Below, piece after piece: positions 29,572 through 63,757 of a stretch of DNA of 64,000 nt (position 1 is its first letter; each line of letters starts with the position of its first letter). The position numbers were made by a program, and so were the translations under genes. The notes under the pieces were generated by a model. The model searched no databases. It saw nothing but the letters and a program-made list of their open reading frames with translations, and had not been told where the DNA came from. The DNA comes from Lachnospiraceae bacterium (GTDB taxonomy: Bacteria > Bacillota > Clostridia > Lachnospirales > Lachnospiraceae). Where the stretch lies: positions 1 to 64,000 of the forward strand of contig SVFJ01000004.1 of assembly GCA_015056925.1 (NCBI GenBank), given 5' to 3'.

Positions 29572-29666
29572 AATAACCATACCTTTCCAAAACCTGCATA
29601 CTTTGGACCGTAGGTACAAGATTTGCAACGCAAACTTAGTTTGCATGTGAAATTTATTTCACATTA
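29572..29666 (-). repeat. Structured leader repeat, family 2, copy 1 (before truA)
   Basis: Read on the minus strand it begins TAATGTGAAATAAATTTCAC (a hairpin whose TGA is the ecfT stop), then GCAAACTAAGTTTGC, then the core hairpin TTG-U-ACC-UAC-GGU-C-CAA, and ends GGAAAGGTATGGTTATTG just before the truA ATG. It aligns with copies at 44480-44558 and 63680-63757; the core stem ACC/GGU replaces GCC/GGC of copy 2 by paired changes. Confidence 0.75.
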
Positions 29667-30468
29667 TACCTGCAAGCTTTCCTGCCATCACACCAACTAC
29701 CAGATAACATACCACAAATCCATATGCCACAAAGTCACGCTTTTCATAATGAAGAGGCTTCATCTTGGTACGAAACTCTCCGCCACGATAGCATCTTGCC
29801 TCCATCGCCATGGCAAGGTCATCGGCACGTCTGAATGCCGATATAAAGAGCGGCACCAATAACGGAACCATATTCTTGGCGCGCTTTAATATATTTCCGC
29901 TTTCAAAATCAGCACATCTTGCCATCTGTGCCTTCATAATCTTATCTGTTTCTTCCATGAGAATCGGTATAAATCGTAGTGCAATAGACATCATCATGGC
30001 AATCTCATGTACCGGTACATGAATCTTCTTCAATGGTCCCAGCATCTTCTCCAAGCCGTCTGTCAACTGATTTGGTGTAGTTGTTAATGTCATGACCGAT
30101 GAACCAATAATCAGAAATGAAAGTCTGATTGCCATGAGTCCTGCCAGCTTGGCACCCTCCTTGGTAATGGTCAGCACCCAAAAGGATACCAGAGGTTCAC
30201 CCGGCGTCAAAAACAGATTAAAAACTACTGTAATCAACAGCAGAAAAATAATTGCCTTCATACCTCTTACCATGAATTTGAACGGCACCTTAGATAACTT
30301 AATCACAACAGCCAAAAACGCAGCTGCTACCAAATATCCTGCGATACCGTCAAATACAAATAACGATATAATAAATATGATAGTTGTTGCCAGCTTTACT
30401 CTGGGGTCCAGTCTATGTATTACCGAATCCGCATGATAATATTGTCCTAACGTAATATCTCTGAGCAT
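29659..30468 (-). CDS. ecfT: ECF transporter transmembrane protein EcfT
   Basis: This is the scaffold membrane subunit of group II energy-coupling-factor vitamin and metal importers. The 269-residue protein starts MLRDITLGQYYHADSVIHRL and has several membrane helices. The two coupling motifs appear as MARCADFES (about 170) and MAMEARCYRG (about 228), the Ala-Arg-Gly-like contacts with the ATPases. It follows ecfA2 in the usual A1-A2-T order. Its stop codon is provided by the repeat that precedes truA. Confidence 0.93.
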   Translation of the reverse strand: MLRDITLGQYYHADSVIHRLDPRVKLATTIIFIISLFVFDGIAGYLVAAAFLAVVIKLSKVPFKFMVRGMKAIIFLLLITVVFNLFLTPGEPLVSFWVLTITKEGAKLAGLMAIRLSFLIIGSSVMTLTTTPNQLTDGLEKMLGPLKKIHVPVHEIAMMMSIALRFIPILMEETDKIMKAQMARCADFESGNILKRAKNMVPLLVPLFISAFRRADDLAMAMEARCYRGGEFRTKMKPLHYEKRDFVAYGFVVCYLVVGVMAGKLAGIM

Positions 30469-30505
30469 TTTTAATCCTCGTAAATCTTTCTATTACATGT
30501 TCTGC

Positions 30506-31381
30506 TTAAAAGCCACTTCTCTTCGCCTTAACAAGCTTTGTAAAATATGACTTTATCTCTTCTTTAGCCTCGTCAATCGTGGTTACATCATCGCTGACAT
30601 CCATCCCCTTGTCCTGAAGGCTCTTCATAATATAAGTTACCTGTGGTGCCGCAAGACCAATCTCTTCAAGCTCAGCATAATGCCGGAATACTGCCCTCGG
30701 CTCGTCATCATACATCACACTGCCCTTATTCATAACAATGATTCTATCCACATACTTCGCCACATCATCCATACTATGAGACACCAGAATCACGGTAATT
30801 CCGGTCTCTTTCTTCAGCTTCGCAATTTGGTCTAATATCTCATCCCTGCCCTTCGGGTCCAAGCCTGCAGTCGGCTCATCCAAGATAAGATAATCCGGCT
30901 TCATGGCAAGCACTCCTGCGATTGCCACACGACGCTTCTCTCCACCTGATAAATCAAAGGGAGACTGATAGAAGTACTCATCCTTTAATCCTACCAGTTT
31001 CAATGCCTCATAAGCTCTCAGCTGTACTTCTTTCTCCGATAAGCCAAGATTCTTTGGTCCAAAGCAAACGTCCGTAAATACATCCGTTTCAAAAAGCTGA
31101 TGCTCAGGATACTGAAAGACCAGTCCTACCTTGCTTCGAAGCTTTCTTTTATTAAAATCCTTATCGTCAATATCCTCACCATTAAAATAAATCGCACCAC
31201 TGGTCGCCTTCATCAATCCATTGAGATGCTGTACCAATGTAGATTTCCCGGAGCCCGTATGACCAATCAGGCCAATAAACTGTCCGTCCGGAATCACTAA
31301 ATTAATATCTTTTAAGGCATGGACTGCCAATGGTGTATCTTCACCGTATATATGACTTACATGGTCTACTATGATTGGCAC
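30506..31381 (-). CDS. ecfA2: ECF transporter ATPase EcfA2
   Basis: This is the second ATPase of the ECF module, 291 residues. Walker A is GHTGSGKSTLVQHLNGL, the signature SGGEKRRVAIAGVLAM, and Walker B LILDEPTAGLDP. The start is GTG at 31381, 8 bases after GGAGG; ten further in-frame codons run back into the end of ecfA1, but no site supports them. It works with EcfA1 and EcfT to power several substrate-binding S-components, none of which is encoded here. Confidence 0.94.
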   Translation of the reverse strand: MPIIVDHVSHIYGEDTPLAVHALKDINLVIPDGQFIGLIGHTGSGKSTLVQHLNGLMKATSGAIYFNGEDIDDKDFNKRKLRSKVGLVFQYPEHQLFETDVFTDVCFGPKNLGLSEKEVQLRAYEALKLVGLKDEYFYQSPFDLSGGEKRRVAIAGVLAMKPDYLILDEPTAGLDPKGRDEILDQIAKLKKETGITVILVSHSMDDVAKYVDRIIVMNKGSVMYDDEPRAVFRHYAELEEIGLAAPQVTYIMKSLQDKGMDVSDDVTTIDEAKEEIKSYFTKLVKAKRSGF

Positions 31382-31397
31382 GACTTTTCCTCCATTA

Positions 31398-32261
31398 CTA
31401 CATAATCTCATCTATACATCTGTCAATTGCCTGTGCAAATTCTTCCTTTGTTAACAATCCCTCTGGAATTGGAAAACCTTCCTTACGAAGTTCATGCGCC
31501 AACAGAGTAACCTGCGGTACATCAAGACGCAGCTGCTTTAACCTATCCACCTGTGAAAATATCTCTCTGGGTGTTCCCTGCAGCTCTATTCTTCCCTTAT
31601 CCATTACAAACACCTTATCTGCATAGATAACCTCTTCCATATAATGCGTAATCAGGATAATTGTAATCTTCTCTACGTCATTCAACGCACGAATGGCACG
31701 AATAACCTCTTTTCTGCCCTTAGGGTCTAACATCGCTGTCGGCTCATCTAATATGATACACTTTGGATGCATTGCAATCACACCGGCAATAGAAACTCTC
31801 TGCTTCTGTCCGCCTGAAAGCTTATTGGGCGAATGCTTACGATACTCATACATTCCAACCGCCTTCAGGCTTTCCTCTACACGTTCCCATATCTGCTTGG
31901 TTTCTATCCCCATATTCTCCGGTCCAAAGCCTACATCCTCTTCCACAACCTGTCCGATAATCTGATTATCAGGATTCTGAAATACCATACCTGCGGTCTG
32001 TCTGATATCCCACAGATACTCCTCCTGTTGCGTATCCTTGCCATCTACCCACACAGTTCCTTCTGTCGGATAATGAATCGCATTCAAATGCTTTGCTAAG
32101 GTAGACTTTCCCGAGCCATTATGCCCTAAAATTGCAACAAAATCTCCTTGCTCAATATTGAGGCTAACATCATCAACGGCCTTTGTAATACCCTCTACGT
32201 TACCCTCTTCATCACGCCTGATATATTCAAATATTAAATCCTTAACCTTAATAATACTCAT
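31398..32261 (-). CDS. ecfA1: ECF transporter ATPase EcfA1
   Basis: This is the first ATPase of the ECF module, 287 residues. Walker A is [15 protein letters not shown], the signature [16 protein letters not shown], and Walker [14 protein letters not shown]. In many Firmicutes this gene follows rplQ directly. Here rplQ is 6.4 kb upstream, separated by a two-component system, two ABC exporters and a J-domain gene. The ribosome binding site is weak. Confidence 0.94.
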
Positions 32262-32323
32262 ATCCGCTGTTCCCTGTGTCCATTTCTATTCCTTGCTTTA
32301 TATCACCTATTTGGTGAGCTTCT

Positions 32324-32887
32324 TTACTTCCTGCTTTTGCGTTCTTCTTCTTCATTGAGCTTCTGCTGCATAAAAGCCTGATACACCTGCTTACGCACCT
32401 TGGCATCCTTGTCTTTTTTATCTTGCTCCATCTGGCGCTTAATAGTCTCAGCAAGCCATATTGCACGAATTTTGTTAAGTACTTCTTCCTCGCTGGTTTG
32501 AGGCTTTTCCTGCTTTTTCTTCGCTTCCTGTGCCTCTTTAAACCTCTTAACACGTTCTTCCTTCTCACGCTCTAATGCACGCTTACGTTCTTCCTGAAAT
32601 CTCTGCTGCTGTCTATGCTGTACCTTTGTCTTTGCATTCGTTTCAAAGATTCTGACAGGCCGTGTTGGCATAATCACCGGTGCCTGATACGGATGCTCCT
32701 GTAAATATTCATATGCTGCATGTATTCTAAGATAAATCTGATGTGTATTCTGATTCGGATTGGAATCCGGATGATACTGCTTTACCAGATTACGATACGC
32801 TCTCTTTACTTCCTCTTCACCTGCACTAAGACTCACCTGTAAAATATAGCATGCTTCTTCTCGTGAATAAATTCTGTCCCCTACCAT
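32324..32887 (-). CDS. J-domain protein (187 aa)
   Basis: This is a DnaJ-type co-chaperone that would stimulate a Hsp70. The J-domain spans about residues 6-70 with the HPD motif in KQYHPDSNPNQNTHQIYLRI. The remaining 115 residues are highly charged and helical (Glu, Lys, Arg, Gln) with coiled-coil character, lacking the zinc and substrate domains of DnaJ. The ATG at 32887 is chosen; a TTG nine bases upstream is possible. It precedes ecfA1 by 62 bases. Clients are unknown. Confidence 0.85.
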   Translation of the reverse strand: MVGDRIYSREEACYILQVSLSAGEEEVKRAYRNLVKQYHPDSNPNQNTHQIYLRIHAAYEYLQEHPYQAPVIMPTRPVRIFETNAKTKVQHRQQQRFQEERKRALEREKEERVKRFKEAQEAKKKQEKPQTSEEEVLNKIRAIWLAETIKRQMEQDKKDKDAKVRKQVYQAFMQQKLNEEEERKSRK

Positions 32888-33047
32888 AGTTTCCAACTCT
32901 TTCTTATTCTTCCAACCTTCGATTACACAAATAGTCTAGTCTATTATACATAATTCATTCAGTACATTCATGAATAATTACTATTATACTATATTTTATC
33001 CGATAAATTAATACAAGTACTTTTTATTCGGCATCTGCTCATACAAA

Positions 33048-33098
33048 GTAAAAGAAGCAACATTTTAGTACATGTACCTACAATGTCACTTCTTTTTG
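33048..33098 (-). terminator. Terminator of the ABC exporter operon
   Basis: On the minus strand AAAGAAGTGACATT (33095-33082) pairs with AATGTTGCTTCTTT (33064-33051) with one mismatch and runs into T residues. It follows the stop at 33112 and isolates the exporter genes from the J-domain gene. Confidence 0.85.
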
Positions 33099-33111
33099 TC
33101 TTACTAACTCT

Positions 33112-34959
33112 TTATTGGTAATAACTGGCCTGCGCTCCCCACAGCTGAGCATACAAACCGTCTTCCTTTTCTAATAATGCTTCATGACTTCCCATCTGCA
33201 CAATCTTACCACCATCAAACACCAATATATTCTTACAGAAACGGCAGCTGGACATTCTATGCGAAATATAAATCGCTGTCTTATCCTCTACCATTTCATC
33301 AAACTTCTCATAAATCTCAAGCTCAGCAATCGGGTCAAGTGCTGCTGTCGGCTCATCTAAAATAACTACAGGCGCATTACGATAAAGCGCTCTTGCAATC
33401 GCAAGCTTCTGCGCTTCTCCGCCTGAGATTTCCACGCCTTCATCATCCTGCTTATAGATAACAGTATCTATTCCTTTCTCCCAGCCTTGTACCTTTTCTT
33501 TCATGCCAGCCTGTTCCAGACAAGTCCAAACTCTATCAGCATCATACTCAACACCTGCTGCTACGTTCTGCGCTACAGAAAATGAGAATAGCTGAAAGTC
33601 CTGAAATACCACCCCAAACAGATTACGATACTCGTCATAATCATACTTGCGGATATCAATACCATTTAATAGGATTTCTCCCTCGGTTGGGTCATACAGG
33701 CGACAAAGCAGCTTGATAAATGTAGATTTTCCTGAACCATTCTTACCTACGATTGCCATTTTCTTTCCCACATGAATCTTGGCATTCACATTTTCCAGTA
33801 CCATTTCCTTGCTATTAGGATAATGAAAGGATACATTACGGAATTCTAACTCGTATTCATTATCTAAGCGCTTTTCTACAGGGAGTGTACCGTCGTATTT
33901 TTCATTTGGAAGGTCGAGGTATTCGACGTAGTTACTGAGATACTGACTAGTCATAATGAGCCAGCTCACAATATCTAATGTTTCACTAATGTTTTGATAT
34001 AACGCAACTGCAATTCCGACATACAGAGTAAGTTCTCCAATGGTGATTGCACCGCCTAATACCTTGAGTCCAACATATGTGTACCCTAATAGCTGACATA
34101 GTGTGAATGAAAGCTTTTCCTGTTGATTTACCCTCATGATACCTCTTGCTTGCTTCATCCAAATATCTGTCATGCATTCTTTTTCAATTGCCATTTTCTT
34201 GCGAAGCATTGGAAGCATATTATAGATGCGAACACTTTTACCCTTTGCATAATCATGTACATAAGAAATAAAATAACCAAATTTCCTGTTACTACGCACC
34301 CCATGTTCAAATCCTTCATTCTGGATTTTGCTAATCCTCTTTAGCAGAATATATAAATAATACATAATCCCTATGAACACAGCTATAACTACTAAATCTG
34401 TCCATACACTGTTCATAATACTGACCAGCGTGTCTGACAATCCTATATCATAGTTTAATTCAGCTCGAAACAACGGTGTTAACCAAAAGATAGAATATAC
34501 AATAACAAAAGTGCATCGGAAAATACTTGCTATATACTGACAATAGGAATTCAAACCACCCGAATAATATTCACCATCTTCAATCTGTTTTACCATATCC
34601 TGTGTTGCTGAATTTTCTAGCACCTGATAGTCCATGGTGATTGATTTCTCCGCCATGGATACCTTAATTCCATTCTCTACACGGCGTCTTTTTACAATGA
34701 GAACCTTATCAATTGCCCATTGAATCAATGACATTGACATATAGCATACTACTAATCCAATCGCTAGTGTAACAATCTTTTCCTCTGATTTCCCAACAGC
34801 AATCTCATTAATTACACATGCTGTCATGTAAATATTGAGGAATACTTTTGCCATTCTAATGGCCTCTTCCACCAACATAAGCAGCAGATAACTTGGACAT
34901 ACTTTGTATACCCACTTCAATATTCTGATATTTCTTTCCAATATACTATTAGCTTTCAT
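33112..34959 (-). CDS. ABC exporter half-transporter (permease-ATPase), second subunit
   Basis: This 615-residue membrane protein has six N-terminal membrane helices (about 20-310) and a C-terminal ATPase. Walker A is VGKNGSGKSTFIKLL, the Q-loop VVFQDFQLFSF, the signature SGGEAQKLAIAR, Walker B VVILDEPTAALDP and the H-loop YISHRMSS. The ATG at 34959 follows GGAGG and overlaps the stop of the upstream ABC gene by 11 bases, so they likely form a heterodimer. The cargo is unknown; the neighbouring AgrC/AgrA-like pair suggests peptides or drugs. Confidence 0.9.
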   Translation of the reverse strand: MKANSILERNIRILKWVYKVCPSYLLLMLVEEAIRMAKVFLNIYMTACVINEIAVGKSEEKIVTLAIGLVVCYMSMSLIQWAIDKVLIVKRRRVENGIKVSMAEKSITMDYQVLENSATQDMVKQIEDGEYYSGGLNSYCQYIASIFRCTFVIVYSIFWLTPLFRAELNYDIGLSDTLVSIMNSVWTDLVVIAVFIGIMYYLYILLKRISKIQNEGFEHGVRSNRKFGYFISYVHDYAKGKSVRIYNMLPMLRKKMAIEKECMTDIWMKQARGIMRVNQQEKLSFTLCQLLGYTYVGLKVLGGAITIGELTLYVGIAVALYQNISETLDIVSWLIMTSQYLSNYVEYLDLPNEKYDGTLPVEKRLDNEYELEFRNVSFHYPNSKEMVLENVNAKIHVGKKMAIVGKNGSGKSTFIKLLCRLYDPTEGEILLNGIDIRKYDYDEYRNLFGVVFQDFQLFSFSVAQNVAAGVEYDADRVWTCLEQAGMKEKVQGWEKGIDTVIYKQDDEGVEISGGEAQKLAIARALYRNAPVVILDEPTAALDPIAELEIYEKFDEMVEDKTAIYISHRMSSCRFCKNILVFDGGKIVQMGSHEALLEKEDGLYAQLWGAQASYYQ

Positions 34960-36802
34960 ATGCAGCCTCCATGTCGCCCTCTTTTGCATCTTCCTTATAG
35001 TAATGACTCTGCACTTCATAAATATGAGCATATCGTTGTCCGAGCTTCATGAGTTCTTCGTGACTACCTGACTCAATAATCTTTCCGTCCTCAAGAAAAA
35101 TAATTCTATCACAAAAACGTGTACTCGCCAGTCGATGTGAAATAAATAAACTAGTCTTATCCTCCGTCAGCTTATTATATTCCTCATACATTGCACTTTC
35201 TGCCAGTGGGTCAAGAGCAGCAGTTGGTTCGTCTAAGATTAAGAACGGTGCATCTTTATAGATACATCTTGCCAACATTAGTTTCTGCATTTCGCCGCCT
35301 GATAAACGAATTCCCTCATCATCAAATATGGGTGTAATATGTGTCAACTCTTTCTTATTCAAAGAGTTAATCTTATCATATAATCCAGCTTCCTTTATCG
35401 ACTTCCAGAATAGCTCTTGGTCTGCCTCGTCCTCTTCCCTTGCAGCCACTAAGCTTAACAGTGAAAACGCCTGCTCCTCTATGTCCTGAAATACAACCCC
35501 CAGCATTTTAAAATAACTTTCTATATTGTATTCCTGAATTGATACGCCATTTATCAGTATCTCACCTTCTTTAGGCTGATAGAAACCACAGAGAAGCTTT
35601 ACAAGTGTCGTCTTTCCTGCACCATTATTTCCTACCAGCGCAAGCTTTTCTCCTGCTCGTATATGTAAATTCACATGATCAAGTATCTTCTCTTCCTCAT
35701 TCTCATACCAAAAAGAAACATTTCTAAGTTCAATCTCTGGTGGATACTTTGAAACATCGGGTTCTATGCCTAATCCTCGCTTAAAAGCGTCTTTCAAGTC
35801 CAACATTTCACGTAAATCACATATCATTACATTGGAATCCATCATAGTGTTGTACGCATTCACAAATCCAAATAACCAATTAGAAAATTCACCAATAATT
35901 CCAAACATCAAGGTAAATGTCGCAAGTGTAATCTCGCCCTGAATCGCCAGATGAATTAGTATCACGTATGCCAATCCATCTCGTAATGCGACAAATATGG
36001 TATCTGATACAACCGGCAGATAATAATGCTTTTCCACTCTCTTCTGCCAAGCCACTCCCTTCTCCACATAGCTATGCAACAAATCCCCAAACCACTTTTC
36101 CATGCGATAAATACGTGCATCCTTACCTGCTACTATATCTTTTGCTTTATCAGACAAATACCAAAATTTACGATTCGCTTCGCTATCCTCTTCGCGAGTC
36201 TGTTTTACAAAATCTCTTGCAAATTTATTGCTATAAATATTGCATACCAGCATCAGAATTAAAACGATCAGGATACGAATGTCCACTGTTAAAATCGCTG
36301 CGCCATAGACAATTAATCCTATCGCATTGATTACTACATTCGTAAATTCCTTATATACTCTTTCAAGACCCTGCCAATTCCCGGATAAAGCCTGACTGGC
36401 TTTTCCTACTAGCTTTCGATTCTCATATCTTTCTACATTTTGATAGTCTGTTGTAAGAGCCTTCTCTATCAGTTTCCCCTCAAAGCTAAAGCATCTTGTA
36501 CACGTTCCATATATTCCCCAATACTGTCCCAGTCCTTGTTCTATATTGGCAACTATTCCTCTGATAAATACCACCACTCCGACTGCCAATAAAAAGAACT
36601 TTACACCTTTCTGTTGCTCTATTCCATGTACCGCAACCGCTGGAATCAGAACTTGTAGAAAATTCCCCATAAATACCGATGATATAAGCGCTACAAATGC
36701 AAGCCATGCCTTCCAACCATAGTCTTCATGAAGCTGCTTCATAATAAAACATAGATTACTTATGAATGAATATTTTGGTTTTACTTTCTTTTCCTTTCTC
36801 AC
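34949..36802 (-). CDS. ABC exporter half-transporter (permease-ATPase), first subunit
   Basis: This 617-residue permease-ATPase fusion has the membrane domain at about 35-330. Its ATPase motifs are Walker A VGNNGAGKTTLVKLLCG, signature SGGEMQKLMLARCIY, Walker B LILDEPTAALDP and H-loop FISHRLAS. The start is a GTG at 36802 after AGAGG, spaced 9 bases. It is 251 bases after the histidine kinase gene and overlaps the second subunit gene. The pair with a GHKL kinase and LytTR regulator looks like a signal-controlled exporter. Confidence 0.9.
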   Translation of the reverse strand: MRKEKKVKPKYSFISNLCFIMKQLHEDYGWKAWLAFVALISSVFMGNFLQVLIPAVAVHGIEQQKGVKFFLLAVGVVVFIRGIVANIEQGLGQYWGIYGTCTRCFSFEGKLIEKALTTDYQNVERYENRKLVGKASQALSGNWQGLERVYKEFTNVVINAIGLIVYGAAILTVDIRILIVLILMLVCNIYSNKFARDFVKQTREEDSEANRKFWYLSDKAKDIVAGKDARIYRMEKWFGDLLHSYVEKGVAWQKRVEKHYYLPVVSDTIFVALRDGLAYVILIHLAIQGEITLATFTLMFGIIGEFSNWLFGFVNAYNTMMDSNVMICDLREMLDLKDAFKRGLGIEPDVSKYPPEIELRNVSFWYENEEEKILDHVNLHIRAGEKLALVGNNGAGKTTLVKLLCGFYQPKEGEILINGVSIQEYNIESYFKMLGVVFQDIEEQAFSLLSLVAAREEDEADQELFWKSIKEAGLYDKINSLNKKELTHITPIFDDEGIRLSGGEMQKLMLARCIYKDAPFLILDEPTAALDPLAESAMYEEYNKLTEDKTSLFISHRLASTRFCDRIIFLEDGKIIESGSHEELMKLGQRYAHIYEVQSHYYKEDAKEGDMEAAYES

Positions 36803-36957
36803 TTCGTCAATCCTCTCCCCCTGGTTTTTATATGATACAATCTCAAAATCTTTCTCATTTATTCAAAAACACTACACATCACCACATTTAGTTCTGTCTG
36901 TACTATCATTTACTGAATGAGCACGAAAGTCATATTTCTTATAGGAAATCCATACAG

Positions 36958-36985
36958 AAATAAGCATACGTTTCCATATGCTTAT
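36958..36985 (-). terminator. Hairpin between the histidine kinase and exporter genes
   Basis: AATAAGCATA and TATGCTTATT form a 10-base stem around the CGTTTCC region. There is little T tract, so it may be an attenuator or a messenger-processing hairpin rather than a full terminator. Confidence 0.45.
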
Positions 36986-37053
36986 TCTAATATATCTCTA
37001 TTCTATTCGGTAAAAAATTTCCTAAAATGTAAAATTTCGTTCACGAAATACAT

Positions 37054-37791
37054 TTAACCTATCTCAAGTGGTAGCATAATCTCTGTCACAAATACGCCAG
37101 GTTCATTCTGACGATTAATATACCCACCATACTTTTCCACTGTCATATTAATTCGTTTTAGTCCATGTCCATGATTACCACGTTTACTGCTGATGTAATC
37201 CTTATCCAGTTTACGAATCACCTCATTAGTCGCATTGGAAACAGATATGTATAGTTGACTTTGACGAATACACATATAGATACGCAAGAACCTTCTTGGG
37301 CCTTCTTCCAACTTATCACATGCCTCTATGGCATTGTCCACAAGATTACCTAGTAGTACACACAAGTCTATTTGTGGAATGCTTATCTCGCTATTAAGCA
37401 CGGTATCACATTTAATATCGATACCATGTTTTTGGGCAAGACTAAGCTTACTGTTTAAAATCGCATCTACTCCGATATTACCTGTCTTATATTCGAAATC
37501 AATCCTATCCAGTTCATCATCCATCTTATCCACATATTCATTAGCTTCTGCAATCTGTCCTGCCTCTAAATGCGCCTTGATTGCCTGCATATGATTATGA
37601 TAATCATGTCGCCAGCCACGCATTGTCATATAGATGTCATTCATCTCTTCCATCTGTATGTTCAATACTTTATCCTGATACTCATAGAAATGTTTATCCT
37701 GCTGACGCTTTCTAACCAACACATAGACTATAAAAATCAATGTCACTAGCACCGCATAACCTACCAGTATTAATGTAATATTGTATTGCAT
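37054..37791 (-). CDS. GHKL-type sensor histidine kinase (AgrC-like), short sensor
   Basis: This 245-residue protein has a single N-terminal membrane helix (about 5-26), then the phospho-acceptor region GWRHDYHNHMQAIKAHLEAG and a GHKL ATPase domain with LGNLVDNAIEACDKL (N-box) and GNHGHGLKRI (G-box). It lacks the multi-helix AgrC-type sensor, so the signal may be sensed through the exporter or a very small domain. AGGAG precedes the ATG. It follows the LytTR response regulator by 94 bases. Confidence 0.88.
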   Translation of the reverse strand: MQYNITLILVGYAVLVTLIFIVYVLVRKRQQDKHFYEYQDKVLNIQMEEMNDIYMTMRGWRHDYHNHMQAIKAHLEAGQIAEANEYVDKMDDELDRIDFEYKTGNIGVDAILNSKLSLAQKHGIDIKCDTVLNSEISIPQIDLCVLLGNLVDNAIEACDKLEEGPRRFLRIYMCIRQSQLYISVSNATNEVIRKLDKDYISSKRGNHGHGLKRINMTVEKYGGYINRQNEPGVFVTEIMLPLEIG

Positions 37792-38617: not shown

Positions 38618-38639
38618 ATATTGCCCTCTTTATTTTCTT

Positions 38640-43833: not shown

Positions 43834-44475
43834 TTACTCAAGAATATCAACAATCGCCTGGAAGACATCCTTCATATCTACTGTTCCGTCTACAGTCTTA
43901 AGTACATTCTTAGCTGTATAGAAATCAATTAAAGGCTGTGTCTGCTTGTGGTAAACATCCAATCTGTTCTTAACAGTCTCCGGCTTGTCATCATCTCTTA
44001 AAATAAGCTCAGAACCACATGTATCACAGATACCCTCTGCCTTTGGCGGAATATGTACTAAATGATATGTTGCTCCACATGTAACACATGCTCTTCTGCC
44101 TGACATTCTTCTGACAATATTCTCATCAGGAACATCTACATTAATTGCATAATCAATCTTGTCTCCAAGCTCTGTTAACGCTTTATCTAAAACCTCTGCC
44201 TGTGGAATTGTTCTCGGGAATCCATCCAATACATAACCATTCTTACAGTCATCCTTTGCTACTCTGTCTAAAAGAATCTTTACGGTAAGCTCATCCGGAA
44301 CCAACTGACCCTGGTCCATATACTTCTTTGCTTCCATTCCAAGCTCTGTACCATTCTTAATATTTGCTCTGAAAATATCTCCTGTTGATACATGAGGAAT
44401 TGTATACTTCTCAGCAATCATCTTAGCCTGTGTACCTTTACCTGCGCCTGGTGCGCCTAACATAATAATCTTCAT
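43834..44475 (-). CDS. adk: Adenylate kinase, zinc-type LID
   Basis: It interconverts AMP, ADP and ATP. The 213-residue long form has the P-loop [14 protein letters not shown]-binding TGDIFRANI and DGFPRT, and a LID with four Cys (CVTCG and CDTCG) that bind zinc. The ATG is directly preceded by a family 2 repeat, which separates it by about 83 bases from an AGGAGG at 44559-44564. The gene is cut off from secY by 495 non-coding bases. Confidence 0.96.
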
Positions 44476-44479
44476 ATTT

Positions 44480-44558
44480 AATAACCATGCCTTTCCATTG
44501 CGTGCAAACTTTGGGCCGCAGGCACAAATTTGTGTGTGAAAATTTATTTTCGCACTAT
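44480..44558 (-). repeat. Structured leader repeat, family 2, copy 2 (before adk)
   Basis: On the minus strand it begins TAGTGCGAAAATAAATTTTC (hairpin closing on CAC), then the core hairpin TTTG-U-GCC-UGC-GGC-C-CAAA, and ends GGAAAGGCATGGTTATTAAA four bases before the adk ATG. The last 45 bases align closely with copy 1. An AGGAGG at 44559-44564 abuts its upstream end, as if the repeat had entered between a ribosome binding site and its start codon. Confidence 0.78.
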
Positions 44559-44621
44559 CCTCCTAGCCACTGTAGCTGCCTTGTCTTCTTTTGTTTGCTA
44601 TTCTCTTGCCATAGCACTCCA

Positions 44622-55776: not shown

Positions 55777-56046
55777 AAAAAAAGTCGCCTCCTTTTCGCA
55801 CTTTTACTTCATAAGTACGACAAGCGGTGACTGTACACTCTCCCGTGTGTGTCATGCATACAACACCAAGGCAAGGACACAGTCCCATCCCTATTGTCTG
55901 CATTCCATTCACGTCGTTTCTACACTACGTAGACTATCTGTTTTGTACAGTGACTTGTCGCCAGTTTCCTAACTTGACATTCGCTCCGCGGAAAACCTAC
56001 CATAATGGTAGCAACCTCACGTTTCATCGCTATCATGCCACAGCAA
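55777..56046 (-). promoter_or_regulatory. S10 operon leader
   Basis: The untranslated leader of about 270 nt contains several hairpins, for example CTACCATTATGGTAG (about 56002-56017) and TCTACGTAGTGTAGA (about 55920-55935). It has no gene. Feedback control of the operon through this RNA is plausible but no known class could be assigned by eye. Confidence 0.5.
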
Positions 56047-56051
56047 TTAGT

Positions 56052-56080
56052 AGTATATCTTATAGTGGTATTATTTGCAA
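56052..56080 (-). promoter_or_regulatory. Sigma-A promoter of the S10-spc-alpha block
   Basis: TTGCAA (56080-56075) and TATACT (56057-56052) on the minus strand are 17 bases apart. Transcription would begin near 56046. Confidence 0.78.
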
Positions 56081-56225
56081 GATATTTTTATGTATTTTTT
56101 TAGATACAATCCTGTCCCACTATTTCCTACTTATCCTCGTCTATTTTAATAGGAAATAAAAGCATCTGTCAAGAAAATCCTTTTCTATCACTTTTAATAA
56201 TGTTATAATGCTTTCATGATTAAAC

Positions 56226-56375
56226 AACTATTCAGAGCCCTCATTCGCAAAACCGCTACTTCGTAGCTTTTCTTTTGCTCATGTGGGCTTCTCACCATAT
56301 GAATTTATAAATACAGACTTCTGTAAGCTTAGCTTGCTCCGTCTGTTATATAAATTCGCATGGTTCTGAATAGTT
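56226..56375. repeat. Hairpin-rich MITE-like element, family 1, copy B
   Basis: The ends AACTATTCAGAGCC (56226-56239) and GGTTCTGAATAGTT (56362-56375) are inverted copies with one mismatch. In reverse it shows the same modules as the element at 44688-44836: TGCGAATTTATA, an ACAGAC/GTCTGT stem around an AAGC repeat, TTTATAAATTCATA, GGTGAGAAGCCC, and a GCAAAA/TTTTGC stem enclosing GCTAC/GTAGC. It is 150 bp, non-coding, between the S10 promoter and the divergent methyltransferase gene. Confidence 0.78.
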
Positions 56376-56414
56376 ACATTATTATAATATTGAAGCTATT
56401 CAAAGGAGATTGAT

Positions 56415-57275
56415 ATGTGGTTAGCTGATAACTGGAAAGATTATGAAGTAATAGATACGTCAAGCGGCGAGAAGCTGGAGCGCTGGGGTGATTACCTTTT
56501 GGTAAGACCGGACCCTCAGGTTATTTGGAACACGCCAAAGACTGCTGCCGGATGGCGCAAGAAGAACGGACATTATCACAGAAGTGCCAAGGGTGGCGGT
56601 GAATGGGAATTTTTTAATCTGCCTCAGGAATGGAGCATTCATTACAGAGAACTCACCTTTAACCTGAAGCCTTTTAGTTTTAAGCACACAGGACTTTTCC
56701 CTGAGCAGGCAACTAACTGGGACTGGTTCTCAGAACTGATTCGTAATGCCGGACGTCCTATCAAGGTATTGAATCTGTTTGCCTATACCGGTGGTGCTAC
56801 ACTAAGTGCCGCCAAAGCAGGTGCCTCTGTTACACACGTAGATGCCTCTAAGGGTATGGTTGCATGGGCTAAGGAGAATGCTGTTTCCTCAGGATTACAG
56901 GATGCCCCCATCCGATGGCTGGTTGATGACTGTGTAAAGTTTGTGGAGCGTGAAATCCGTCGCGGCAATAAATATGATGCCATTATTATGGACCCTCCTT
57001 CTTACGGAAGAGGACCTAAGGGCGAGATTTGGAAAATCGAAGAGGCAATTTATCCTTTCGTAGAACTGACTACTCAGATTCTTTCAGATAATCCTTTATT
57101 CTTCCTTATCAACTCTTATACCACCGGATTACAGCCTGCAGTATTGACTTACATGATGCAGACAGCCATTGTACCCAAATTTGGCGGTAAGGTAGAAGCT
57201 TCCGAAATCGGACTTCCTGTATCAGGCAACGGACTGGTTCTTCCTTGCGGAGCAAGCGGTCGTTGGACAAAATAA
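56415..57275 (+). CDS. Class I SAM-dependent rRNA methyltransferase-like protein (RlmI/COG1092 type)
   Basis: The 286-residue protein has an N-terminal beta-rich substrate part and a Rossmann methyltransferase domain. SAM motif I is LNLFAYTGGATLSAAKAGA near residue 120, the acidic post-I motif VTHVDASKGMVAWA, and the catalytic IIMDPPSYGRGPKGE. Relatives methylate cytosine in 23S rRNA, but the PUA domain of RlmI is absent, so the target is uncertain. AAAGGAG precedes the ATG. It is divergent from the S10 operon. Confidence 0.87.
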   Translation: MWLADNWKDYEVIDTSSGEKLERWGDYLLVRPDPQVIWNTPKTAAGWRKKNGHYHRSAKGGGEWEFFNLPQEWSIHYRELTFNLKPFSFKHTGLFPEQATNWDWFSELIRNAGRPIKVLNLFAYTGGATLSAAKAGASVTHVDASKGMVAWAKENAVSSGLQDAPIRWLVDDCVKFVEREIRRGNKYDAIIMDPPSYGRGPKGEIWKIEEAIYPFVELTTQILSDNPLFFLINSYTTGLQPAVLTYMMQTAIVPKFGGKVEASEIGLPVSGNGLVLPCGASGRWTK

Positions 57276-57285
57276 TGCATACAAA

Positions 57286-57325
57286 AAAGCTGACATGCAC
57301 ATGAAGACATGTCAGCTTTCTTCTT
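57286..57325. terminator. Bidirectional terminator
   Basis: AAAGCTGACATG (57286-57297) pairs perfectly with CATGTCAGCTTT (57308-57319), with A and T runs on both sides. It serves the methyltransferase gene and the convergent small membrane protein gene. Confidence 0.92.
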
Positions 57326-57327
57326 AT

Positions 57328-57693
57328 TTAATAATACATATATGGTCCCATCTCAGCCATGATGGATGCAAAAGCCGCGAAAAATACAATCGTCAAAATA
57401 ATGCTAAGTACAACTGAAATTAACATCCATACAAGTTCTGCCTTAAAGATGTTCGACTTACTCTTCTTACCATTACCAAATGCCCATACAAACATCATTA
57501 CCAAACCAACAATCGGAATACACATAATAAGCTTTGTCAGCATCCAATCACCAAATGTAATCGGTTCCTCTAAATCTCCGCTATATGCCTGCTGAACCCT
57601 TGCAAAATCCTGACTAGGCTGCTGATATCCATATGGCTGCTGCTCCTGTGAGTATCCCTGATAAGACTGCTCCTGATTAAAATTGTTATCCAT
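57328..57693 (-). CDS. Small membrane protein with Gln/Tyr-rich N-terminus (121 aa)
   Basis: I recognise no specific function. The first 45 residues are hydrophilic and rich in Gln, Tyr and Ser (QEQSYQGYSQEQQPYGYQQP). Two membrane helices follow at about 50-70 (MCIPIVGLVMMFVWAFG) and 82-112 (ELVWMLISVVLSIILTIVFF). A short positive loop GKKSKSN joins them. Similar proteins are common in Lachnospiraceae. It ends at the shared terminator. Confidence 0.78.
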   Translation of the reverse strand: MDNNFNQEQSYQGYSQEQQPYGYQQPSQDFARVQQAYSGDLEEPITFGDWMLTKLIMCIPIVGLVMMFVWAFGNGKKSKSNIFKAELVWMLISVVLSIILTIVFFAAFASIMAEMGPYMYY

Positions 57694-57787
57694 TGTTACT
57701 CTCCCTCTGAAATAAAAATTATTGCATTATAATCATACAACTATTTTCGTCAAGCAGCAACATATTTTTATGTTAACTCATATTTTT

Positions 57788-59461
57788 TTATTCCATATGA
57801 CAAATAACATCTCTAATTTGTAAAATTTTGGAAGGAGCAACCGAGATTTCATCAATTCCCATCTCTACAAGCTGCTTCGTCATCTGCACATCTGCTCCCA
57901 GCTCACCGCAGATTCCAACCTCTATATCTGCCTCATGTGCATTGGCAGCTACAAGCTCAATCATCCTCAACACCGCCAAGTGGTACGGATTATAAAATGC
58001 ATCCAACTCCGCATTCTGTCTGTCTATCGCTAATGTATACTGTGTCAGGTCGTTGGTTCCGATGCTAAAGAAATCAACCTCCAAAGCAAGCTCCTTACTA
58101 ATCATAACAGCCGCCGGTGTCTCTATCATAACCCCCAGCTTGACCTCTCCATACACTATTCCTTGTGCTTCCAACTCTCTTTGCGCAATATCTAATAATT
58201 TCTTTACATCCAGAACTTCATCTACCGAAATAATCATCGGCACCAGAATCTTTACTCTTCCATATGCCGCCGCCCGCAAAATAGCACGCAGTTGACACCG
58301 GAACATATCTCTGCGCTTTAAGCAGATTCGAATCGCCCGGTACCCAAGTGCCGGATTCCGTTCAGGCTTCAGTCCCATATAATCCACCGTCTTATCCGCT
58401 CCGATATCAAGCGTTCTGATTACAACCGTTTTGCCCTGCATAGACTCCACTACATATTTATATAGAAGAAACTGCTCATCTTCGGTAGGGTAATCCTCGC
58501 GATTCATATATAGAAATTCGGTTCGAAACAGTCCGATACCCTCTGCATCGTTTTCTATTGCTTCATCCACATCCTGTTTGCCTGCAATGTTAGCGTAAAG
58601 CTTAACCACTTTTCCCTGCTTCGTTCTGGTTTCTCTTCCCTTGAGACTTTCCAATTGCTCCCTTCGCTGCCTTGCTGCATTGTTCTGAACCTCTAACAAC
58701 TCCAAGGTCATTTCATCCGGCTCAATGTATATCTTACCGTTTACCCCATCCACTGCTGCCAGCTTGCCATTCCATTCAGGTCGAATCTCTATCCCCGATA
58801 CCGCAGGAATATTCATAGCCCGTGCCAGAATCGCCGCATGGGAATTCTTAGACCCCTCCGTAGAAACAAGAGCCTTTACACTTTCCTTATCCAACTGCAT
58901 TGTCTGCCCCGGAGTCAGCTCCCTTGCGAGCACAATTCTGTCATCTCCATGTCCGTCTGCCTTAATGCTGCATTCCGAAGTTATTGTCTGTGTTACTCCC
59001 CTACGATTAGAAACTGCACTTTCCGCTAAAACGTCTATTAATATAGAAAGAACTCTGTCTGTCACATCCTTTACATCCTGACTTCTTTCACGCATATACT
59101 CGTCTCCAAGACATCTAAGCTTCTCCGAATACCACTGCCCCGTGCTGTACACGGCATATTCTGCGTTGGTTCGCCTATTCTCTATCCAATCCCTTACTGA
59201 TGTATGATACTCTTCATCACGCAAAAACATCTTCTGCGCCTCAAAAACCAATGCCTTCTCTCCACCAAGCTCCTGCAATGCCTTTTCATACAAATCCTGT
59301 AATTGCACGGTCGCAAGAGCACACGCCTTTTCATATCGTTTCCACTCATCTGCAACATCCTGGGCACGAATATAGGTAACCGCAATCTGCCTCTCCTCAT
59401 GAATCTCTATTCTACCTATTGCTATCCCGGCGACCAAGCATTTTCCCTGAATACACTCCAA
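57788..59461 (-). CDS. ptsI: Phosphoenolpyruvate-protein phosphotransferase (PTS enzyme I)
   Basis: It passes phosphate from PEP to HPr to drive sugar uptake. The 557-residue protein has the phospho-His in STEGSKNSHAAILARAMNIP (about 190) and the PEP-binding barrel motifs GIGLFRTEFLYMNREDYPTE, RTLDIGADKTVDYM and FFSIGTNDLTQYTLAIDRQN, plus VGICGELGAD. The usual GG-T-S-H context is altered to GSKNSH, keeping the His. The start is TTG after GGAGGG. No ptsH is next to it; it follows a lipoprotein gene by 25 bases. Confidence 0.95.
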   Translation of the reverse strand: MECIQGKCLVAGIAIGRIEIHEERQIAVTYIRAQDVADEWKRYEKACALATVQLQDLYEKALQELGGEKALVFEAQKMFLRDEEYHTSVRDWIENRRTNAEYAVYSTGQWYSEKLRCLGDEYMRERSQDVKDVTDRVLSILIDVLAESAVSNRRGVTQTITSECSIKADGHGDDRIVLARELTPGQTMQLDKESVKALVSTEGSKNSHAAILARAMNIPAVSGIEIRPEWNGKLAAVDGVNGKIYIEPDEMTLELLEVQNNAARQRREQLESLKGRETRTKQGKVVKLYANIAGKQDVDEAIENDAEGIGLFRTEFLYMNREDYPTEDEQFLLYKYVVESMQGKTVVIRTLDIGADKTVDYMGLKPERNPALGYRAIRICLKRRDMFRCQLRAILRAAAYGRVKILVPMIISVDEVLDVKKLLDIAQRELEAQGIVYGEVKLGVMIETPAAVMISKELALEVDFFSIGTNDLTQYTLAIDRQNAELDAFYNPYHLAVLRMIELVAANAHEADIEVGICGELGADVQMTKQLVEMGIDEISVAPSKILQIRDVICHME

Positions 59462-59486
59462 TGCAATCCCTCCGTTCTCTTACACT

Positions 59487-61115
59487 TTACTCACAGGCAC
59501 TATTCTCATATGCATAATCCCGAATATTCCACTGCCCCTCTCCCTGATAGCCAAGCTCTGCTACCAGATAGCCTTCACTATATATCGGCATGAGCATATC
59601 CTCTGTATATACCTGAAATAATGTCCGCAATACCACTCTATCATCTATAAACTCATAATAAATATGATTACCGACGCCATATTTCTCCGAAAGCTCGGAC
59701 GAAACCTCCGGATACACTGCAACTACTTCATCCTTTATCACCAGTGCCAATCCCTGCTCTGTGTCTTGATATGTGAACAAATCGTCAAGTCTCTGATACC
59801 AGTCATACTGCAATTCAAAAACATACCACTTGCCATCCGACGCCTTATCCACCATCCAAAGGTCATTCATATAGACACCTGTTCCATGCTTGGTTAGTGT
59901 TATCAATGCCAACTCCCGAATGCCGTCACCGTCAAAATCGCTCTCAAGCGCCTGTGGCTGCACGCCATAATTAGATGTAAAATACCCATCCACTTGGACA
60001 AAAGAACCATCGCAGGTTTCTATCATCATTCTGCTGTCAATATGTGTACCATAGACTGCAAAAGACTCTGTTTCCTGTATCTGAAACACCTGATAGTAAT
60101 GCTTCTCCGAATCCCATTTTGCCCAATAGTCATCAGCCCAACGCTCCCAATTCTTCGAAAAATCCGGTAGCATTCCACCTAAAACCTCATGCTCTTCCGG
60201 GCTTGGTACATATTCTTCACCTACAATACTTGGATTATCCCAGCTTTCTCTTGATATCGTAGAAGCATGAAATGCCTCCTGTGTCCAAGGAAGCTTCTCC
60301 AAATCAACCGTAGCCAGATATTCTGCACCATCCAGCACCTCGGTCTCAAGCTTGGTAAACGTTCTATCCTCAAGTGCATAGTGATATCTTACCGTAGCAG
60401 AACCATCCGCCATCTCTACCGGTGCTATCACCTCTATGGTCGCATCCGAAAGTACATTCTTAACACCTGTCACACCTTCCAGCAGTTCCCACGATGAGGT
60501 ATCACCAAAGCCGATAATCCGACCATCTGCCACGCCATCCTTGGAAAAATTAAGAAACACTGCAAATTCTTTTGCATTCTCAATCCCTGCAAGCCTTTCC
60601 CCACGAAACAGGATATTCTGCTCCAAAAGTTCAACATATCCGCCTGCATTCACATGCCAGGCACTTCCTTTTATACCGTCTTGTGTCTTCTCACCTGCTA
60701 CAACAATCGCAGTATCATACAGATTCTTCCCTTCATATGCAAAGGTTAAGAAATCTACGGCACCATTATTTTTCACATTCTCAAGCAAAGTCTGTGTATA
60801 AGTATTCTCTCCCCATACTCCTATCAGCTCACTCACAGACCACTTCTTTAACTCCTTACGACTCTCCTCCAAAGCCTGACTAAGCTCATCCCTGGCAGCT
60901 TCCATCTCAGACTCTGTAATCACAGAATGCCCCGTCTGCTGTGTGTTACTCTCCTCATCACTACCAACAACAACCTGCGACTCCTCTACCCGCATAGCAC
61001 TCTCAGTCTCATCTATAGCAGACTCAACACCACATGCTGTAAGTGTTGCTCCCACTACAACGCAGGCAGCCACAACAGCCTGCTTCTTCCCTGCTTTCCA
61101 CACTATTCTCTTCAT
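59487..61115 (-). CDS. Lipoprotein of unknown function with FG-GAP-like motif (542 aa)
   Basis: It has a signal peptide with lipobox LTACG near residues 26-29, so it should be anchored outside the membrane. A glutamate/serine-rich linker follows, then beta-rich domains. One segment, SDFDGDGIRELALITLTKHG (about 400), resembles calcium-binding FG-GAP repeats. I recognise no enzyme. AGAGGATAA precedes the ATG. It follows the M56 protease gene by 34 bases and precedes ptsI, suggesting it is controlled by the BlaI-like repressor. Confidence 0.75.
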   Translation of the reverse strand: MKRIVWKAGKKQAVVAACVVVGATLTACGVESAIDETESAMRVEESQVVVGSDEESNTQQTGHSVITESEMEAARDELSQALEESRKELKKWSVSELIGVWGENTYTQTLLENVKNNGAVDFLTFAYEGKNLYDTAIVVAGEKTQDGIKGSAWHVNAGGYVELLEQNILFRGERLAGIENAKEFAVFLNFSKDGVADGRIIGFGDTSSWELLEGVTGVKNVLSDATIEVIAPVEMADGSATVRYHYALEDRTFTKLETEVLDGAEYLATVDLEKLPWTQEAFHASTISRESWDNPSIVGEEYVPSPEEHEVLGGMLPDFSKNWERWADDYWAKWDSEKHYYQVFQIQETESFAVYGTHIDSRMMIETCDGSFVQVDGYFTSNYGVQPQALESDFDGDGIRELALITLTKHGTGVYMNDLWMVDKASDGKWYVFELQYDWYQRLDDLFTYQDTEQGLALVIKDEVVAVYPEVSSELSEKYGVGNHIYYEFIDDRVVLRTLFQVYTEDMLMPIYSEGYLVAELGYQGEGQWNIRDYAYENSACE

Positions 61116-61149
61116 CTATTATCCTCTGACTTAACTTCATAATTATTTG

Positions 61150-63666
61150 TTATCTCTTTACGAAGCGAACAGACTTTGCAAGTGCAATCGCATCCTCCTT
61201 CGTAAAGTTTTCCTGATTAAGATACACTGTATAAACTATCTCACTATCAGGCTCCCCAAAGAACACATACCAATATCTAGAGAAACACTGCTCCTCTAAT
61301 GCATCTGGATACTTCTCCTTATACTCCTCCCACTCAGGAATCGTAAACGAATCAAAGATTGCTTCACACAGCATCGCCTGCATGTCGCAGCCCTCTATAT
61401 ATTCTCCTTCCGACTCTATCTCGGCATGATTCATCCTCCACCACACCTTCGATAATCTTCCATCTTCAAAGATTAGCATTGGCTCATACGGACTTTCCAC
61501 TATGCCAACGCCTCCCAAAGCATACCAAGCCTCGGGACACCATTCTCCATGTACTGTTTCCGGATAGTCTCCGTACATCAAACATCCGCTAAATATATCA
61601 TTGTTATATATCTGATAGTTACCCAACGTAACACCCTCAGGCAACTCTAAGGTCATATATTCTCCAATATCGTATCGTCTTTCAAGGAACTCCATAATAT
61701 CTGCCTTCCCGGCACGATACCCACTCTCTGCACGATATAGCATCAAACCATCATCTGATGCCAACTCACACAAATAAATATCATCCAGTCCATTAGCAAC
61801 CTTACCATACTCTGCTGCCGTCTCCGGTTTCCAGTAAGAAACCTGCATACGGTACTGCTTCTCCTCATACGACATCTCGCAAAAATATGCCCAAGTCAAA
61901 GAGTTCCCCATCTGTTCCTTACTAAAATTACTATAACACAAACTATCCTCTTCTACCAGTCCCTGAAATACATCCTCGATATTTCCGCCGTTGCAAATGG
62001 CAATTAATGTCTCCATTGTAAACTCTTTAGACGAACTCTCAACCTCACCTTCCAGCCTTGGACGAGGAGTATTCTCTCTAAATAGGTATATACAACTTTC
62101 CAGTTTACCAGGCTCTCTTACAACCCATGAACTATCCATCAACGTACCACTTCCAGTCGTCAGGTATCCATATGCATTTTCACCTACTTTTGCACAGTAC
62201 ACACTCTGATACGATGTACAATCATGCTCTACATAATCAATTCTTCTAAGTAATCCCTCAAAGAATGTAACATCCTTCAAAATCTCAGGCGAATCCCACA
62301 GTGACGCATTCTCAAAATCATATATCTGCTTCCATAAAGTATTCTCTTCTACATCATATATGTAAAGCTCATCGCTCATCTGAGGATGCATATAAACCTT
62401 TAATCCATCTGCCGTTGCACGCATCTGGCAATAGTAATCCCCCTGGGTATATTGACAGCCAATCGGCTCCAAGGCTACCTGATGAAGCATTCTCAACTCC
62501 TTTAAATCAAACACATATAATCCATTATAATCGCGACAAATCAAACGCATATCGTCTACATACACCAACTCTATGCCATCTACTCCACAAATCATATCCT
62601 CTGTAACAACTGCTTCGACAATCTCTATCTGCTGTGGCTCAGAATATGCAATCTCCTCCGCCTTTGTATCTGCACTTTCCTCTCTCTTTGTCATAAATAC
62701 TGCCGTCAGCGCAATGCACACCAAAATAACAACAATCGCAACTACCTGCATTGTCTTCTTATTCGTCAAAATATTCTTAATTCTCTGCTTGGTATCTACC
62801 TCTCCAAATGCAAGAGGCACTCCGAGCTTATAGCTTCTTTGACTTCTTCCCGCAGAAATCCATAAAAGTGTACCCGCATATGCCTTCTTTGACTCATCTC
62901 CAAGTCTTTTCACCGTCTCTTCATCACATGCCATTTCCATGTCGCGCTCTAATAAGATAAAAGCTACCCATGCCAACGGATTGAACCAATGTACGCCAAC
63001 AATCAAAAATGCAATCAACTTCTTAATCGGGTCTCTTCTCATAATATGCGTCTGCTCATGCGCTAATACATAGCTTCTGTGCTCTGCATCCATACTCGTC
63101 GGAAGATAAATATGCGGTCTGATGACACCAAAGACCATAGGCAGTTCAATATCTTCTGCCAGATAAATATTGTCCCGTTCACAAATACTGCAAATAAGGT
63201 ATTTTCTCAGCTTCAAAGATGAAATCAGCATATAACAAAGTACCGCTGTAACTCCAATCACCCATATAGCAAACAAAGAAAGACCAACAAGATTCTGTGC
63301 AGAATACCATCTTTCCTCACTGATATCCTCAATGAAAACAATAGACTCCTGCTTTGTTTGTGCAATCCCACTTCCCTCGTAATGTCCAACAGGTTCTCTC
63401 TTATCGGGTATTGCTGCCGGAAAATCGCTCTGCGGATGCACCTTCTCCTGATACTGTGAAATGACTGACTCCGCTCTCCAGAAGCCAACCGGACTGCTGA
63501 TTTTCCATGGAAATACCATAAAAAAGAACGGAATCATCCATAACAGCATAATATACTTCTGTGGTACCTGTCCCTTTATCAATAATGCTCTGACTGCACA
63601 TATAACCAATATAATCACTGCTGCCTGCATACTCATTGTACCAAGCCCAATTAAAAATCCTTCCAT
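61150..63666 (-). CDS. BlaR1/MecR1-type M56 membrane metalloprotease sensor
   Basis: This membrane protease would cut a BlaI-type repressor after sensing a signal. The 838-residue protein has N-terminal helices at about 13-30 and 36-52, another at 128-150, the zinc motif AHEQTHI (His203, Glu204, His207) and the downstream ACDEE ligand. A further membrane helix lies near 305-330. The large outer domain (about 330-838) is not penicillin-binding-like and lacks an STxK, so the ligand is not obviously a beta-lactam. ATG 63666 follows GGAG; a GTG at 63753 after AAGGAG would add 29 residues encoded by a repeat. Confidence 0.88.
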   Translation of the reverse strand: MEGFLIGLGTMSMQAAVIILVICAVRALLIKGQVPQKYIMLLWMIPFFFMVFPWKISSPVGFWRAESVISQYQEKVHPQSDFPAAIPDKREPVGHYEGSGIAQTKQESIVFIEDISEERWYSAQNLVGLSLFAIWVIGVTAVLCYMLISSLKLRKYLICSICERDNIYLAEDIELPMVFGVIRPHIYLPTSMDAEHRSYVLAHEQTHIMRRDPIKKLIAFLIVGVHWFNPLAWVAFILLERDMEMACDEETVKRLGDESKKAYAGTLLWISAGRSQRSYKLGVPLAFGEVDTKQRIKNILTNKKTMQVVAIVVILVCIALTAVFMTKREESADTKAEEIAYSEPQQIEIVEAVVTEDMICGVDGIELVYVDDMRLICRDYNGLYVFDLKELRMLHQVALEPIGCQYTQGDYYCQMRATADGLKVYMHPQMSDELYIYDVEENTLWKQIYDFENASLWDSPEILKDVTFFEGLLRRIDYVEHDCTSYQSVYCAKVGENAYGYLTTGSGTLMDSSWVVREPGKLESCIYLFRENTPRPRLEGEVESSSKEFTMETLIAICNGGNIEDVFQGLVEEDSLCYSNFSKEQMGNSLTWAYFCEMSYEEKQYRMQVSYWKPETAAEYGKVANGLDDIYLCELASDDGLMLYRAESGYRAGKADIMEFLERRYDIGEYMTLELPEGVTLGNYQIYNNDIFSGCLMYGDYPETVHGEWCPEAWYALGGVGIVESPYEPMLIFEDGRLSKVWWRMNHAEIESEGEYIEGCDMQAMLCEAIFDSFTIPEWEEYKEKYPDALEEQCFSRYWYVFFGEPDSEIVYTVYLNQENFTKEDAIALAKSVRFVKR

Positions 63667-63679
63667 TTCAATCTCCATT

Positions 63680-63757
63680 CTTGCTGCAACCCGGAAATTT
63701 GGGCGCAAGCACAAATTTCTGTGTAAAAAATCTTCCATATATGGATTTTTCACACTA
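63680..63757 (-). repeat. Structured leader repeat, family 2, copy 3 (before the M56 gene)
   Basis: On the minus strand it begins TAGTGTGAAAAATCC, forms a long stem closing on GATTTTTTACAC, and then the core hairpin AAATTTG-U-GC-UUGC-GC-C-CAAATTT. The beginning and core align with copies 1 and 2, while the GGAAAGG-ATGG tail is absent or diverged. It lies between an AAGGAG overlapping the blaI-type stop and the M56 coding start. Confidence 0.68.

Follow-up and report, generated by a model that had tools for sequence, protein, structure and literature searches.

Three short structured repeats on the minus strand of a 64,000-nt stretch of Lachnospiraceae DNA (the window: bases 1-64000 of contig SVFJ01000004.1, assembly GCA_015056925.1; C172 in the 183-contig, 3.50 Mb assembly of genome G000) stand directly before truA, adk and an M56 peptidase gene, and belong to a family that we read, with a probability of about 0.77, as a non-autonomous mobile element that enters the gap between Shine-Dalgarno (SD) sequence and start codon and supplies a new SD. 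The unit, made up of a first hairpin (hairpin 1), a core hairpin and its own SD, occupies, in some genomes, the gap from an older SD to the start codon; others lack it at that place. It points in the direction of the gene. In the sole near-identical pair of filled and empty sites, the filled one has lost about five bases of the old spacer and shows no duplication of the target.

Two comparisons are decisive. Locus L250 (the same as L218) is filled and its sister contigs L251 and L252 are empty: L250 and L252 share 1499 of 1500 bases in the left flank and 1496 of 1500 in the right one, and the distance between GGAGAGGA and ATGG is 83 nt in L250 vs 9 nt (GAATGTAAA) in both L251 and L252. If the common TAAA is counted as host DNA, 79 bases replaced five in L250; target duplication is absent from this one pair. 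The second comparison is at adk, which was found in 31 of 38 genomes; among the 30 compared, the window's genome alone is filled, with the element placed between AGGAGGAT and ATG as ctAGGAGGAT-element-ATG, and the starts in G020 and G023 read ctAGGAGGATGAGT(A/T)ATG. The own genome is likewise the only filled one among 30 compared for truA (found in 37 of 38 genomes). A further 21 genes (of 32 prepared) were queried in four relatives, where 18 had a homologue, the gene at C27:41412 not being comparable at its start; by eye, the only recurrences are a variant element in two relatives at C131:1712 and an element at one paralogue in G001, and the C131:1712 site in G020 is empty after GAGGATGAGGAGTAA. 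Two pairs of loci (L141 and G000 C94:6147; L150 and G000 C44:31210) appear by eye to be the same gene carrying the element in two species, and the relatives checked for these two G000 genes are without hairpins; such cases would reflect repeated insertion or loss. L141 is from the cultured Kineothrix alysoides KNHs209, which has at least this copy.

From 5' to 3' the element consists of hairpin 1, an optional hairpin 2 (e.g., GCAAACTAAGTTTGC), the core hairpin, its own SD (mostly GAAAGGCATGGTTATT), usually three bases and then the start codon. The first-pass annotation of the window had reported three minus-strand elements each leading into a gene, which held for all three, with truA (PF01416), adk (PF00406) and the M56 peptidase (PF05569) behind them; the limits it gave needed correcting, copy 3, for example, extending beyond 63680. 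Copy 1 comprises hairpin 1 (ATGTGAAATAAATTTCACAT, 29645-29664, which folds as a hairpin), hairpin 2 (GCAAACTAAGTTTGC, 29630-29644, a module also found in other long copies), the core (29596-29626, identified by model match and core covariation) and the SD motif GAAAGGTATGGTTATT (29572-29587, found by motif search), followed by truA on the same strand (28808-29569, ATG at 29569; no element at truA in the 29 relatives shown). In copy 2 the older SD AGGAGG (44559-44564) lies upstream of hairpin 1 (GTGCGAAAATAAATTTTCACAC, 44534-44555, one mismatch), the core (44504-44533, model match) and the built-in SD motif GAAAGGCATGGTTATT (44480-44495, motif search), with adk behind it (43834-44475, minus strand, ATG at 44475); ctAGGAGGAT, which contains this older SD, directly precedes adk in the element-free G020 and G023. 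Copy 3 has a long hairpin 1 with CCATATATGG inside (63721-63755, folding as a hairpin), a shortened core (63695-63720, weak model match and sister copies) and a second type of built-in SD, AATGGAG (63673-63679), with a similar right end in L111, L142, L149 and L153; its ATGGAG (63678-63673) ends 6 nt before the ATG at 63666 of the peptidase gene (61150-63666, minus strand), which we took as the start because it follows this SD. A possible older SD, GGAGA, lies upstream of copy 3 at 63761-63765, as judged from the sequence of this copy. Copy 3 belongs to a subfamily that is divergent (E = 0.0019 with a model of 10 copies) and has two near-identical sisters in its own genome, at C27:34277 and C162:12326. 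A fourth copy matches the model on the same contig just beyond the window (C172:72338). A direct-repeat scan of the window with a minimum length of 28 nt does not pick up the three copies because they are too diverged; a two-part pattern gave 5 matches in the own genome vs none for its reversed control.

The core hairpin reads GCAAA-UUUG-U-GCC-UGC-GGC-C-CAAA-G-UUUGC. The U/C mismatch and the paired changes in the inner stem (ACC/GGU in copy 1, GCC/GGC in copy 2, GC/GC in copy 3) that had been noticed at first are confirmed from the sequence, together with an unpaired G. Covariation was counted on 39 hand-picked rows with a core of standard length and compared with 500 shuffles. The core hairpin covaries: 83.8% of cells pair (19.7-53.6% in slid versions), 12 cells have both sides changed vs 3.8 in shuffles (reached by none of the 500), and 6 pairs have both sides changed vs 2.9 in shuffles (reached by 5 of 500), with further standard pair types not raised over shuffles (190 of 500). 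Hairpin 1 occurs with a variety of stems. All 57 testable copies found through the core alone have a hairpin of ≥ 8 bp next to the core, vs 278 of 2282 random positions; it is without mismatch in 51 of the 57, with 28 different 5' arms (a few of them misassigned). The 108 copies chosen because their hairpin 1 is clear show 48 distinct outer-arm pairs, and 28 of these pairs are fully complementary. These 108 remain from 150 records (59 core-only, 52 own, 39 others) after removal of 42 without a clear hairpin 1, a few of those kept being doubtful by eye. The hairpin part is predicted to be more stable than shuffles (median z -3.8); single-sequence folding z-scores of the three window copies (-1.71, 0.12 and -2.60) are weak evidence by themselves. 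In a variant of the core, a hairpin like GATGCTAAAGCATC is inserted between CCTGCACAA and TTTGCAGG (G000 C170:2090, C159:7146, C177:8745, C131:1712, C131:2809, C27:41412 and C118:33866).

Position and orientation were assessed on the core-only sample. Fifty of its 59 copies lead into a same-strand open reading frame (ORF) of at least 60 aa, and 45 of these 50 have a core-to-start distance of 26, 27, 28 or 29 nt (5, 19, 12 and 9 cases, respectively); one of the other nine is cut by a contig end and eight have start codons with frames of ≤ 42 aa. When the first start of an ORF of ≥ 80 aa was required to fall between -60 and +50 nt, a stricter criterion, the figures are 42 of 59 copies vs 273 of 2801 random same-strand positions and 10 of 59 on the opposite strand. 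Scatter without orientation or start-codon bias, or a larger alignment lacking covariation, had been named in the first-pass annotation as what would speak against a structured leader repeat; the biases hold and the core covaries.

An older SD is frequent just upstream of the element. In the 12 nt that precede hairpin 1, 66 of 108 copies contain an SD word (AGGA, GGAG, GAGG or AAGG), which mostly ends 3-8 nt from the hairpin; the next four intervals farther out contain one in 13 of 108, 14 of 108, 10 of 108 and 14 of 107 copies. For the new SD, pairing was predicted with the 16S gene end of two relatives (GGATCACCTCCTTTCT; the exact pattern does not occur in the own assembly), the position of the mature end being assumed. 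The predicted pairing of the right end of the element with the 16S tail falls into three blocks (7, 3 and 3 pairs) and has an energy of -11.6 kcal/mol, compared with -12.3 for the displaced adk SD, -12.5 for AATGGAGG and -7.8 kcal/mol for AGAAAGG alone; since a right end with GG changed to CC still pairs otherwise at -10.2 kcal/mol, the gain from the GGU is not clear-cut. By the same kind of prediction the motif GAAAGGYAWGGTTATT could pair with the 16S tail in several short blocks. In 93 of the 108 copies the openness of the SD was computed: its mean predicted probability is 0.67 with the real hairpins vs 0.57 with shuffled ones, and it is higher with the real ones in 66 of 93 (p about 1e-5).

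The latter result bears on the alternative of a cis-regulatory leader RNA, in which GUGCCU of the core would have two alternative partners, one inside the core hairpin and the other the new SD, and a signal would switch translation. A conserved structured leader at unrelated genes is what such a regulator would look like, and a helix hiding the SD is possible in 87.2% of cells (83.6% for another alternative, CCUGC with GCAGG). Neither helix shows covariation beyond shuffles, however: 50 and 70 of 500 shuffles reach the paired share and score of the SD-hiding helix, and 460 and 482 of 500 those of CCUGC/GCAGG. Moreover, the real hairpins are predicted to leave the SD more open, conservation of the position between species is lacking at adk and at truA, and Rfam 15 gave no match at the elements. 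We rejected the SD-hiding switch on the lack of covariation and the greater openness of the SD, and regard a regulatory leader in general as quite unlikely. Both readings had been offered in the first-pass annotation. An RNA acting in translation or message stability finds weak support, in that the element does carry a ribosome-binding site while the SD-hiding helix lacks covariation and the SD is more open; a mobile element is well supported by filled and empty sites, patchy occurrence, fixed orientation and position at starts, and an older SD upstream. Also rejected were the start of a group II intron (GUGYG), because that stem varies with compensation, and an in-frame leader peptide (ATG GTT ATT NNN ATG), because other spacings and CAAGG variants exist.

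The occurrence of the family is patchy. The model built from 10 copies includes the SD part (the outer stem of model R1 is one column off, and R1 served for searching only) and matches 39 places in the own genome at E < 0.005, the weaker of which often match the SD part only; 52 places were examined there, 30 having hairpin 1 by rule and some of the others the SD part only. Because the model contains the SD, genome contigs were scanned with the core 30-mer alone, which gave the 59 further loci in 35 assemblies, mostly labelled Lachnospiraceae or its genera (some genus labels being ones that we assume to fall in this family). Of 36 genomes in the genus, the own one among them, 28 give between 1 and 31 matches at E ≤ 0.001, the range over all being 0-31; with E ≤ 1e-6 and stricter filters, matches in the family come from 12 of 299 genomes, in 11 of 298 genera; and none of 24 genomes of other families matches at E ≤ 0.001. 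G000, G020 and G023 are rich in the element, and G003, G005, G007, G011, G016, G019, G026 and G033 are free of it. Plasmid records gave no element match and phage records one contig with the element, MT838376.1 (L219). This contig, labelled Bacteriophage sp., opens with an element copy before a yidC-like ORF (by eye) and resembles bacterial DNA. L218 (IMGVR_UViG_3300035498_001876) is a mobile contig in which three large recombinase-like ORFs follow one another (by eye), the element lying between two of them; three further patterns against viral contigs returned L218 again or nothing. L117 (SHOH01000012.1), labelled Anaerolineaceae, has a canonical copy and may be misbinned.

As a mechanism, the structured part would be what the moving machinery recognises, as DNA or RNA. 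Insertion would be tolerated because the new SD takes over initiation, the hairpins folding on themselves and leaving the SD open, and the hairpins may later decay while the SD stays. A broader claim, which we put forward tentatively and consider unlikely, is that of a mobile-element class targeting translation starts, with SD-guided insertion, perhaps through an RNA step, a new ribosome-binding site guaranteed, and spread before essential genes such as adk; the guidance and the RNA step are suggested because the right end of the element is predicted to pair with the 3' end of 16S rRNA. Mobile DNA usually avoids or breaks genes. If the mobile reading is correct, this family enters the few most sensitive bases of a gene, even of an essential one, and repairs the harm through the ribosome-binding site that it brings; it would show how selfish DNA can be nearly harmless and how translation signals spread between genes, explain why some leaders look regulatory without being so, and point to an insertion machinery that reads SD sites.

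Several observations weigh against a mobile unit that brings its own SD. Near-identical flanks were seen in one pair only and the adk comparison is between species, so that the claim of mobility rests chiefly on that pair and on between-species comparisons. An SD word is lacking upstream of 42 of 108 copies, and the only frames behind 8 of the 59 core-only copies are short (≤ 42 aa). L102, L110 and L156 (assembly JAITWD01) have an extra upstream hairpin and TGCATGGGGATT in common, from which the unit may be longer in that genome and the three copies are not independent. No mobilising enzyme was found by the Y1 transposase search, among neighbour genes or in upstream reading frames. Finally, 30 of 38 genomes contain GAAAGGYAWGGTTATT-N1-5-ATG, with 120 matches in all when element copies are counted (none for the reversed control); the motif stands mostly three bases before ATG, at many starts without hairpins (in G029 and other genomes of the genus; e.g., L323-L333), and 18 of 20 fetched sites had no core upstream by eye, L334 being a full copy and L340 a partial one. 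In G029, 23 of 68 GAAAGG sites stand 13 nt before the start. The genes at C44:31210, C10 and C172:72338 have the SD motif without hairpins in relatives, so that at these three genes the hairpins alone could have come or gone.

With GAAAGGYAWGGTTATT this common in their absence, the motif is a native type of ribosome-binding site, a relic of old insertions, or both. In the first case the hairpins alone might move, inserting just upstream of a native SD, and the match at the boundary would be secondary. The frequency of the motif and the three genes just named speak for this. On the other side, the empty sites (adk in G020 and G023; L251 and L252) are without the motif, hairpins and SD motif thus differing together (as between L250 and L252), and L111, L142, L149 and L153 join another SD type to a canonical core. 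We find movement of the hairpins alone very unlikely.

An IS200/IS605-type (Y1) transposase or a REP/RAYT system, active now or in the past, could have generated the element by acting on hairpin ends. This would agree with its hairpins at the left end and inside, the imperfect core with fixed mismatch and bulge, the lack of visible terminal inverted repeats, the fixed orientation and the absence of target duplication in L250/L252, but such an origin is highly improbable given that PF01797 is missing from the element-rich G000 (96.6% complete) and G020 and occurs in 20 of 38 genomes of the genus, among them 4 of the 8 without the element (G003, G007, G011 and G016), and that no fixed short target was seen by eye beside hairpin 1. 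G023, G032 and G001 carry both the element and a Y1 gene, so that the two could be linked there. For the mobile unit with its own SD, the search for a machinery covered recurring neighbour genes, in which no transposase was recognised by eye (L109 and L218 have a recombinase-like protein in common), and longer versions, no autonomous or gene-carrying form being apparent in front of 13 copies that lack a clear hairpin 1 or among the recurring neighbours. In alignments inspected by eye there are no terminal inverted repeats, the left end being an arm of hairpin 1 and the right end the SD motif. Given that bases were replaced and that the distance to the old SD varies, the mover may well not be a strict-site transposase.

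Two other features were noted in passing. An S10-Clostridia ribosomal protein leader (RF03136, a known family) lies at 55955-56035 on the minus strand of the window (94.5 bits). Before adk in many relatives (e.g., L163, L164, L168 and L171) a recurring pair, TTGAATTGAG..TAT and ATTGAATTGAA..TAT, is perhaps promoters or another repeat.

A literature search, with most subscription journals outside its reach, yielded no description that we recognised of such an element, and the comparisons below draw on the accessible parts of the sources. Staphylococcus aureus extended SD motifs (PMC13009471) similarly pair with the 16S tail beyond the core SD but are not mobile; the accessible text contains none of the words bulge, AGAAAGG and Clostridi. 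REP/BIME repeats with RAYT transposases (PMC3733652) are also small palindromes in many copies, whereas the present element is a unit of two hairpins in a fixed arrangement that has its own SD, keeps to one orientation and stands at start codons, with no Y1 gene in G000 or G020. The pneumococcal BOX, RUP and SPRITE repeats are small interspersed repeats of the kind of miniature inverted-repeat transposable elements (MITEs) (PMC3049150). Like them, our element is short, structured, non-coding, present in many copies and presumably transcribed with neighbour genes, and BOX too has a variable number of inner modules; MITEs are characterised by terminal inverted repeats and target duplications (PMC3049150), neither of which was seen here. 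We class the element with the small non-autonomous mobile repeats, as one for which mobility was shown and terminal repeats, target duplication (one pair) and a Y1 gene (G000, G020) were not found, and its fixed placement between SD and start codon is not among the traits that the accessible part of PMC3049150 describes for BOX, RUP and SPRITE.

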